Shown here: positions 8,836 to 10,935 of the stretch, piece after piece
How the letters are laid out: each line of letters begins with the position of its first letter
Position numbering within the stretch: position 1 is the first letter of the stretch
Assembly (NCBI RefSeq): GCF_900099835.1
Contig: NZ_FNKP01000001.1
Span: 3,100,001 to 3,164,000, forward strand
Direction: 5' to 3'
DNA: 64,000 nt
Origin: Paraburkholderia fungorum
GTDB lineage: Bacteria; Pseudomonadota; Gammaproteobacteria; Burkholderiales; Burkholderiaceae
Notes under the pieces: generated by a model
What the model was told of the DNA's origin: nothing
The model's input: only the letters and a program-made list of their open reading frames with translations
The model's database searches: none
Made by a program: the position numbers and the translations under genes

Positions 8836-8991
8836 GCGCACGGGTCGAGCAAAGATTGCTCGACGCATGATCTTGGCCAGAGCAAAAAACGGCCTGTTCG
8901 AAGCACCGGACAGGCCGTTCGCGCAAAACGTGTCAGCCTGACGACAGGCGCGCAAAAATCCGCCTTGTCGCGCTTTTGTGCAAATTCGTGG

Positions 8992-9021
8992 TTTACACCG
9001 GCGCTTTTCTTGTCGTATTCT
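8992..9021 (+). promoter_or_regulatory. Putative sigma-70 promoter of the argD-type gene
   Basis: A -35 TTTACA (8992-8997), an 18-bp spacer and a -10 TATTCT (9016-9021) predict a transcription start at about 9028-9029, on or next to the ATG of the short arginine-rich reading frame. Confidence 0.5.
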
Positions 9022-9028
9022 TTCGCGC

Positions 9029-9079
9029 ATGAACCGCATCCAGTCCGAACTCCGACGTCGCCGCTCGCCGCTCCCCTAG
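9029..9079 (+). CDS. Putative arginine-rich leader peptide ([16 protein letters not shown])
   Basis: A 16-residue reading frame with five arginines, four of them consecutive and written with four codons (CGA CGT CGC CGC). Its ATG falls at the predicted transcription start, so it would be translated with little or no 5' leader and has no ribosome-binding site. It ends five bases before a segment able to pair with the 5' arm of the downstream terminator. Classical amino-acid attenuators have this layout. GC-rich DNA readily encodes arginine by chance, so the peptide is a hypothesis. Confidence 0.4.
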
Positions 9080-9084
9080 GGACG

Positions 9085-9171
9085 CCGCTGGCTTCGTCAC
9101 GGATTCGCGCTACACAAGGCGCAAGCTGTTCGAATCATGAAAGCCACGGCATGCCGTGGCTTTTCTGTTTT
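9085..9171 (+). terminator. Strong intrinsic terminator with competing antiterminator pairing (candidate attenuator)
   Basis: AAGCCACGG (9141-9149), loop CATG, CCGTGGCTT (9154-9162) form a perfect 9-bp stem followed by TTCTGTTTTT, a strong intrinsic terminator about 70 bases before the aminotransferase ATG. CCGCTGGCTT at 9085-9094 can pair with the same 5' arm using one bulged C, which would prevent the terminator from forming. With no other gene between the promoter and the terminator, a regulated read-through is plausible. The pairing is visible; its use in vivo is inferred. Confidence 0.55.
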
Positions 9172-9243
9172 TCCGGCCGTTGTTTTTGTTGCAAGGCCAA
9201 CCCGTCATCTACCCTTCACCCCCGTTGTCTGGAGCTTGCCGTC

Positions 9244-10428
9244 ATGAATTTCAATGAGTATCCGATCGAGTCGCTGATGTACATCACGAACCGGCCCGAA
9301 ATCGTTTTCACGCACGGCAAGGGCTCGTGGCTTTACGACAATACCGGCAAGCGATATCTGGACTTCATTCAGGGTTGGGCGGTCAATAGCCTCGGCCATT
9401 GCAACGACGGCATGATCGAAGCACTGAACACGCAATCGAAGCTGTTGCTGAACCCGTCGCCCGCCTTCTACAACGAGCCGATGGCGAAGCTCGCCGGTCT
9501 GCTCACGCAACACAGCTGCTTCGACAAGGTGTTCTTCGCGAACAGCGGCGCTGAAGCCAACGAAGGCGCGATCAAGCTCGCGCGCAAGTGGGGCAAGAAG
9601 TTCAAGGACGGCGCGTTCGAAATCATCACGTTCGATCACAGCTTCCACGGCCGCACGATCGCGACGATGTCGGCGAGCGGCAAGCCGGGCTGGGACACGA
9701 TCTACGCACCGCAAGTGCCGGGTTTCCCGAAGGCGGATCTGAACGACATCGCGTCGGTTGAAAAGCTGATCAACGCGAAGACCGTTGCGGTGATGCTCGA
9801 GCCGATTCAGGGCGAAGGTGGCGTGATTCCCGCAACGAAAGAATTCATGCAGCAACTGCGCGAACTGACGAAGAAGCACAACCTGCTGCTGATCGTCGAC
9901 GAAGTGCAAAGCGGTTGCGGCCGCGCAGGCACCCTGTTCGCCTACGAACTGTCGGGCATCGAGCCGGACATCATGACGCTCGGCAAGGGCATCGGCGGCG
10001 GCGTGCCGCTGGCAGCCTTGTTGTCGAAGGCTGAAGTGGCGGTATTCGAAGCGGGCGATCAGGGCGGCACCTACAACGGCAATCCGCTGATGACCGCCGT
10101 CGGCTACTCGGTGATCTCGCAACTGACGGCGCCGGGCTTCCTCGAAGGCGTGCGCGCGCGTGGCGAGTATCTGCGCTCGAAGCTGCTGGAGTTGTCGGCG
10201 GAACGCGGCTTCAAGGGCGAGCGCGGCGAAGGCCTGCTGCGCGCGCTGCTGCTCGACAACGACAACGGTCCGCTGATCGTCGAGAAAGCACGCGACATGC
10301 AGCCCGACGGCCTGCTGCTGAACGCGGCGCGTCCGAACCTGCTGCGTTTCATGCCGGCGCTGAACGTCACGAACGAAGAAATCGACCAGATGATGACGAT
10401 GCTGCGGTCGATCCTCGACTCGCTGTAA
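9244..10428 (+). CDS. argD: Acetylornithine aminotransferase (class III, PLP-dependent)
   Basis: A 394-residue class III aminotransferase that in arginine synthesis converts N-acetylglutamate semialdehyde to N-acetylornithine using PLP. Visible features include the [18 protein letters not shown] phosphate-cup motif, [26 protein letters not shown] and the PLP-lysine motif TLGKGIGGG followed by GTYNGNPL. ArgD versus a succinylornithine or other omega-aminotransferase is not fully settled by sequence, but the length and the [19 protein letters not shown] start resemble the proteins named ArgD in Burkholderia. A candidate arginine attenuator precedes it, and a GNAT gene follows 18 bp downstream. 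Confidence 0.85.
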
Positions 10429-10446: not shown

Positions 10447-10935
10447 ATGACGACAAACGCGACACTATCGATCCGCCGCTTCGACGCGAGCGACACCGAT
10501 GCCGTGATCGCGCTGTGGCAACAGGCGTTCCCCGAGTATCGGGACCTGACGCGGCCGCAGCGTAATCCGCATCTGTCGATTGCGAACAAGCTGGCGACCC
10601 AGCCTGAACTGTTCTTTGTCGCTGTGTTTGACGAGCGTATCGTCGGCACGGTGATGGGCGGTTACGACGGGCACCGCGGCTGGATGTATTCGCTCGCGGT
10701 CGATGAGTCGCTGCGTCGTCATGGTATCGGCACACGTCTCATTGCCCATGTCGAGAAGGCGTTGACCGGCCTTGGATGCCCGAAGTTGAACTTGCAGATT
10801 TTGTCGGCAAAAACGGATCTGCTCGCGTTCTACGAGTCGCTCGGTTATCGCGCTGATCCGGTGATCAGTCTTGGGAAACGGCTGGGTGAACTGGCCGATC
10901 CGGTGGCAATGGCAACGGCGACGACCACGGCCTGA
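10447..10935 (+). CDS. GNAT-family N-acetyltransferase
   Basis: A 162-residue protein with the GNAT fold: LSIRRFDASDTDAVIALWQQAFP at the N-terminus, the acetyl-CoA pyrophosphate-binding motif RRHGIGTRLIAHVEKAL (about residues 90-107), and the C-terminal NLQILSAKTDLLAFYESLGYR. The pattern is closest to the YpeA/RimI-like branch. Its acceptor, small molecule or protein, cannot be inferred. It lies 18 bp after the aminotransferase gene and probably shares its transcript, ending at the hairpin at 10961. Confidence 0.85.
   Translation: MTTNATLSIRRFDASDTDAVIALWQQAFPEYRDLTRPQRNPHLSIANKLATQPELFFVAVFDERIVGTVMGGYDGHRGWMYSLAVDESLRRHGIGTRLIAHVEKALTGLGCPKLNLQILSAKTDLLAFYESLGYRADPVISLGKRLGELADPVAMATATTTA

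Follow-up and report, generated by a model that had tools for sequence, protein, structure and literature searches.

A probable leaderless arginine attenuator ahead of argD in Paraburkholderia fungorum and other Burkholderiales

Described leader systems and the argD leader

Classical amino-acid attenuators control the trp, his, leu, ilv, thr and phe operons. The leader of argD, the acetylornithine transaminase gene, in Paraburkholderia fungorum has the same general plan, with a codon-rich leader peptide, three predicted alternative pairings and a terminator before a biosynthetic gene for the same amino acid. It differs from these attenuators in that the amino acid is arginine, the ATG lies at the inferred transcript start and the run of Arg codons begins with CGA. 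A precedent for a leaderless attenuator is rnTrpL of Sinorhizobium meliloti (trpLE(G)), in which a leaderless ORF is located at the 5' end and termination releases an RNA that is itself a known sRNA (PMC7298713). That system responds to Trp and belongs to an alphaproteobacterium, and roles in trans have been shown for rnTrpL but not for the argD leader. In Salmonella, consecutive Arg codons in the leader ORF orf34 sense arginine and alter RNA folding ahead of speF. The orf34-speF leader differs in having a Shine-Dalgarno sequence and in acting through RNase G sensitivity and Rho-dependent termination on a decarboxylase gene, and it is no intrinsic-terminator switch at a biosynthetic gene (PMC6386406). 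The Pseudomonas carA leader also combines a leader peptide, suspected attenuation, a downstream gene that serves both arginine and pyrimidine synthesis and a short RNA, but its regulation is attributed there to pyrimidines, and both the gene and the class of bacteria are different (PMC4997734).

The argD leader is the same RNA as Rfam RF02884 (BcKCsr7, 'Burkholderia sRNA 7'; Rfam type 'Gene; sRNA'), which is listed as an sRNA or short 5'UTR with no function given in the entries consulted. Its counterpart in J2315, named RIT34, nc5U30 or Bc_KC_sr7, is 147 nt long and expressed, and its level changes under some conditions; the available part of the review states no function for it (PMC10987360). 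By its name nc5U30, the counterpart belongs to a class of short 5'UTRs that its authors ascribed to processing or attenuation, and nc5U30 is not discussed individually in the examined portion of that text (PMC5688073). No function for BcKCsr7 was found in the open-licence literature. Likewise, no arginine attenuator at argD was found in the article texts of the open-licence literature, and argD and acetylornithine are absent from the main text of a broad attenuator survey (PMC2965389). The transcript is already catalogued and therefore the RNA itself is not new; its reading as a widespread, apparently leaderless arginine attenuator is.

In the reading that we consider likely, this leader attenuates argD transcription by way of a translating ribosome and so senses the supply of charged arginyl-tRNA. 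The basis of this proposal is sequence and computation, namely the parts, their order and conservation, the reading frame, the promoter spacing and a predicted switch; from these we infer translation, stalling, a response to arginine and the exact start site. On this proposal, arginine would join the amino acids whose biosynthetic genes are under classical attenuation, here in an apparently leaderless form, and a catalogued orphan RNA family would be assigned a function. What is added to RF02884 is this proposed function, its spread over several families, a codon signature and partial covariation between families.

Parts of the leader and their conservation in the family

The window is a stretch of 64,000 nt from P. 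fungorum (NZ_FNKP01000001.1, 3,100,001-3,164,000), and all coordinates are positions within it. An earlier note on this DNA had read the region as a candidate arginine attenuator. The features are as follows.

8992-9021, + strand: sigma-70-type promoter TTTACA-18-TATTCT (promoter scan; kept in relatives)
9029-9079, + strand: leader peptide frame of 16 codons, with its ATG at or adjoining the inferred transcription start (conserved in relatives)
9053-9064, + strand: Arg run CGA CGT CGC CGC, with its flanks segment 1 (CGACG invariant in the family alignment; predicted partner of segment 2 on RNA free of ribosomes)
9084-9095, + strand: segment 2, 5' strand of the predicted antiterminator, including CCGCTGGCTT at 9085-9094 (folding, family alignment)
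9139-9149, + strand: segment 3, 5' arm of the terminator (terminator scan, folding)
9154-9171, + strand: segment 4, 3' arm of the terminator and U-rich tail (terminator scan; stem 9139-9164)
9015-9166, + strand: match to Rfam RF02884 BcKCsr7 (covariance model, 143 bits against a cut-off of 59)
9244-10428, + strand: argD, acetylornithine transaminase, the proposed controlled gene (NF002985, 803 bits against a cut-off of 568)
10447-10935, + strand: GNAT acetyltransferase gene, starting 18 nt past argD (NF002959, 194 bits)

The promoter, with TTTACA at 8992-8997, a spacer of 18 nt and TATTCT at 9016-9021, was found where the earlier note had placed it, and it was the only one in a scan of 1.2 kb (one found against 0.3 expected). 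The 16-codon frame was also as described: its ATG at 9029 is 7 nt past the -10 box, its stop codon is at 9077-9079, and it contains the four Arg codons that had been reported. The segment said to pair with the 5' arm of the terminator lies within segment 2, and the gene after the leader is argD, as had been stated. A terminator is present; its stem was computed at 9139-9164, and the coordinates given previously (9141-9171) include the tail. The score of argD against TIGR00707 (407.2) is slightly under the cut-off for that family (410.05), and the nearest argD paralogue in the same genome is 43% identical. The GNAT acetyltransferase gene and argD possibly form one operon. Two results go beyond the earlier reading at the level of the catalogue and the order: the transcript is already in Rfam, and the same arrangement occurs in several other families of the order. 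A third is a further arm, predicted by folding: on ribosome-free RNA the Arg codons themselves pair with segment 2.

In the 1.2-kb scan, terminator-like sites were not enriched over shuffles (two found against 1.8 expected), and therefore the hairpin by itself proves nothing. It is the whole arrangement that stands above chance, that is, the Rfam match, the linkage to argD and the Arg-run leaders across the order. An inverted repeat, AACGGCCTGT...ACAGGCCGTT, was spotted by eye at 8888-8919, directly past the upstream gene. This repeat is probably the terminator of the upstream gene itself, so the hairpin at 9139 is not needed for that gene.

Families and genera of the relatives are given here as numbers (f1, f8, g12 and so on) and loci as L-numbers; f1 is the family to which the window belongs. 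A search of 200 genomes of the family with the RF02884 model gave matches in 121 at E<=0.001, of which 82 were over the cut-off. In 67 of 71 records, which include five second copies of a locus, argD lies on the same strand 33-128 nt downstream of the match; the other four are three terminator-only matches and one contig end. Among 80 named loci fetched by argD, 78 have ATG...RRRR, so that the frame and the Arg run, the loss of which in relatives had been named as a possible refutation, are retained. L122 has RRR through the loss of one whole codon. In L144 a contig end leaves only 119 nt upstream of argD; its Arg frame is unscorable and the locus was excluded from the alignment. This alignment, A1, consists of 41 leaders, the set left when 116 distinct leaders and that of the window were thinned at 90% identity, and L148 and L149 were also excluded, their terminators being missed by the terminator pattern used.

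The distance from the ATG to the Arg run in the 41 aligned leaders is 24 nt in 35, 18 nt in two, 21 nt in two and 27 nt in one, and it varies by whole codons only (40 of 41 rows with an ATG). The row without an ATG is L051. Two loci of genus g10, L051 and L068, have a broken frame; both come from members with small genomes, and relaxed selection would lead one to expect this. Pairing in the terminator stem is kept in all 41 rows, at the eighth of its eight columns through a change from A-U to G-C. None of the 41 rows departs from CGACG. In L058 and L063 (f1, g3) the Arg run is broken up as RRSFR with CGACG still present, and two genomes labelled g3 have RRR instead (L161, RRRSFR; L162, RRRAR).

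Of 53 upstream regions scored, 39 have the start codon 6-8 nt past a -10-like box. Another six were measured at 12 nt because a second in-frame ATG was counted, the first ATG being 6 nt nearer; the remaining eight are three without a leader (L225, L228, L240) and five that fit neither class. The spacing behind the claim that the ATG sits at the transcription start is thus kept in most leaders scored, the start itself being predicted. From the ATG to the end of the U-run there are 146-155 nt in 20 loci of genus g12 (presumably Burkholderia), and this span is close to the reported length of 147 nt in J2315.

Predicted switch and its partners

In the proposed mechanism, transcription would start at or beside the A of the leader ATG, and so the ribosome would initiate on a leaderless message. 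When Arg-tRNA is ample, the ribosome would reach or pass the stop codon and cover segment 2, and the terminator would form; the released terminated RNA, about 140-150 nt long, would be the catalogued sRNA BcKCsr7. When Arg-tRNA is scarce, the ribosome would stall in CGA CGT CGC CGC, covering segment 1 and leaving segment 2 open. Segment 2 would then pair with segment 3 and pre-empt the terminator, and argD would be transcribed. In the absence of a ribosome, segments 1 and 2 would pair and the terminator would form.

The leader was folded as transcribed up to just short of the second arm of the terminator, with a ribosome placed at set positions and its 3' edge assumed, as a rule of thumb, to lie some 13 nt downstream of where the A-site codon begins. 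Without a ribosome, the window leader gave 10.1 pairs between segments 1 and 2 and 1.3 between segments 2 and 3. The untranslated fold is stable (z -3.1). With a ribosome placed at the start or the end of the Arg run, on its first or its last codon, pairing between segments 2 and 3 rose to 11.6 or 11.7 pairs; at the stop codon it was 6.6 pairs, and 4 nt further 0.1. In a full-length equilibrium fold the terminator wins at all ribosome positions tested, so the switch must be kinetic. Known attenuators also choose kinetically. An ORF rich in Arg codons before argD and an intrinsic terminator between this ORF and the gene are observed, and an antiterminator that depends on ribosome position and is exclusive with the terminator is predicted by folding.

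A leader was counted as showing a three-state pattern if its stall state had over 3 pairs more than either of the other two. With shuffled middle segments as the expectation, this pattern was found in 33 of 41 leaders of f1 (4.5 expected), 22 of 25 of f8 (5.5 expected) and 5 of 12 of other families (0.9 expected); it is absent in 8 of 41 f1 leaders and 7 of 12 leaders of other families. Within f1, 91.6% of cells pair in the helix between segments 2 and 3, slid registers give 19.5-46.1%, and no pair changed on both sides. Within f1 the helix is therefore conserved, not covarying. The loss of this pairing in close relatives, which the earlier note had named as a refutation, was not seen, and the compensatory changes it had proposed to look for did not appear in this helix within the family. 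Taken alone, the strength of the duplex is weak within f1 (13 of 41 at P<0.05, with L140 worse than shuffles at z +1.09), and among f8 leaders it does not rise above chance (median z 0.19; 1 of 26 at P<0.05).

Between families, partners were swapped among leaders. With one sequence from each of eight families, own partners paired better than swapped ones (P 0.014, 0.011 and 0.005 for three choices), but without family f24, which carries much of the signal, P was 0.09. Twenty representatives, including several close relatives, gave P 5e-5, and 11 leaders of f1 gave P 0.012. In L211 of f24, TTCGTGCGGCC occurs in segment 2 and again in the second arm of the terminator, and its congener L216 has a different terminator and a different segment 2 that fits it. 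These data indicate that segment 2 follows the terminator moderately between families.

A mainly trans-acting sRNA that is merely located upstream of argD, with an incidental peptide frame, would agree with the Rfam type and with the expression of the short J2315 transcript, which varies in some conditions according to the available part of the review (PMC10987360). It would leave unexplained the presence of argD downstream in nearly all records, and neither the whole-codon spacing changes of the Arg frame nor the three-state pattern is expected for a plain sRNA; we regard it as improbable. The leader RNA may nevertheless have a second role in trans alongside attenuation. The earlier reading as an arginine attenuator is correct on the sequence and probably correct on the mechanism, being supported by the frame, the spacing and the predicted switch in relatives, with the arginine response following by inference.

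Spread across the order, codon choice and regulatory context

Across the order, a model search at E<=0.001 gave matches in 31 of 399 genomes, and bare terminators make up many of these. Among the 30 order-level matches listed, 12 adjoin argD; the 18 that do not, mostly bare terminators, were dropped. A mini-ORF with an Arg run and a terminator before argD was found in families f3, f8, f15, f24 and f35 and at one f21 locus (L167), and also, with two Arg codons, in f39. By a fixed leader criterion, the order-wide sample of 55 argD loci gave 35 positives, against 2.2 expected from shuffles. The positives were 23 of 30 in f8, which thus supplies 23 of the 35, 4 of 4 in f3, 3 of 4 in f24, 2 of 5 in f1, and 1 of 1 each in f15, f35 and f30. 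The f30 locus (L206) is doubtful, having no clear leader terminator, and may be due to chance. The criterion gave no positive in f4 (0 of 6), f21 (0 of 2) or f39 (0 of 1), and the 20 loci that fail it include L211 and L221 (both RRH), L239 (RRC) and L215 (RR), which fall short of RRR. The 55 loci are 29 from a search for argD (E<=1e-120; 38 of 250 genomes, among the matches listed) and 26 from further searches.

Leaders of f8 (for example L229, L234 and L237) have a conserved peptide end, G[KM]PC[AV] before the stop (DNA GCCGTGC), which may reflect segment 2 or a constraint on the peptide. In L230 (f8) the Arg run is gone and the peptide tail and terminator are still there; this natural variant should not sense arginine any more. 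In L225 and L228 (f8) no Arg leader precedes argD; a long region of inverted repeats, unlike the other leaders, stands there.

At speF, leader peptides that contain Arg are already known to act as sensors (PMC6386406), and together with the tail G[KM]PC conserved within f8 this raises the question whether the argD leader encodes a SpeFL-like arrest peptide, in which free arginine or ornithine would be sensed in the ribosome tunnel rather than tRNA charging. Outside the Arg run, however, lineages differ in how long the peptide is, in its sequence and in where it stops. Metabolite-binding arrest sequences are not known to vary in this manner. The geometry of the segments also suits stalling at the Arg codons, and we give the arrest-peptide explanation little credence.

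The Arg runs of the 35 positive leaders differ in codon choice from the genes that follow them. CGA is the first codon of the run in 32 of 35, against 14 of 684 Arg codons of the same argD genes, and CGG, AGA and AGG are missing from the runs (0 of 109 codons), although 102 of the 684 Arg codons of these genes are of these three kinds. The runs were found by peptide, not by CGACG; the rows share descent, and so the counts are not independent. One tRNA-Arg(ICG) reads CGA, CGC and CGT, and under attenuation the CGA-first signature leads to a specific prediction on which tRNA is read. The data are compatible with CGACG being held by an RNA constraint. That CGACG and its surroundings are conserved as an RNA structure or protein-binding site, with translation uninvolved, is nonetheless very improbable: the motif is invariant as DNA and the untranslated fold is stable, but the ATG spacing changes by whole codons only, the ATG keeps its 6-8 nt from the -10 box in most regions scored, and RF02884 at its cut-off recognises 0 of 8 loci from other families or distant genera, all eight of which have an Arg-containing frame.

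ArgR over the Pfam cut-off was found in none of 250 genomes of the order, four of which have partial, sub-threshold matches inside long frames; the same search gave 8 over the cut-off among 14 control genomes. None of 21 relatives has ArgR, and membership of an ArgR regulon presupposes ArgR in the genome. A regulon survey describes ArgR as a conserved feature of gammaproteobacterial groups that is lacking in the other classes it covered (PMC5343134). Attenuation at argD would offer a means, open to testing, by which bacteria of an order with no detected ArgR control their arginine synthesis. A broader version of the proposal is speculative, and we would not expect all of it to hold: Burkholderiales without ArgR might control arginine synthesis via one widespread leaderless argD attenuator that senses the tRNA-Arg(ICG) pool, through a near-obligatory slow CGA followed only by codons of the same tRNA, and the released BcKCsr7 might have a second role in trans. 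No convincing leader was found before argG and argC in the genome of the window, where argC was assigned from a match under the family cut-off. GTG frames with RRR occur upstream of both genes, and that of argG falls inside the preceding gene.

Some matches to the model lie before another gene. In L180 and L184 (f15) and in L181 (f50), an Arg mini-ORF and a terminator precede an EamA-family transporter gene instead of argD, the EamA assignment being made by Pfam for L184 and L181. These are possibly a second arginine-linked leader.
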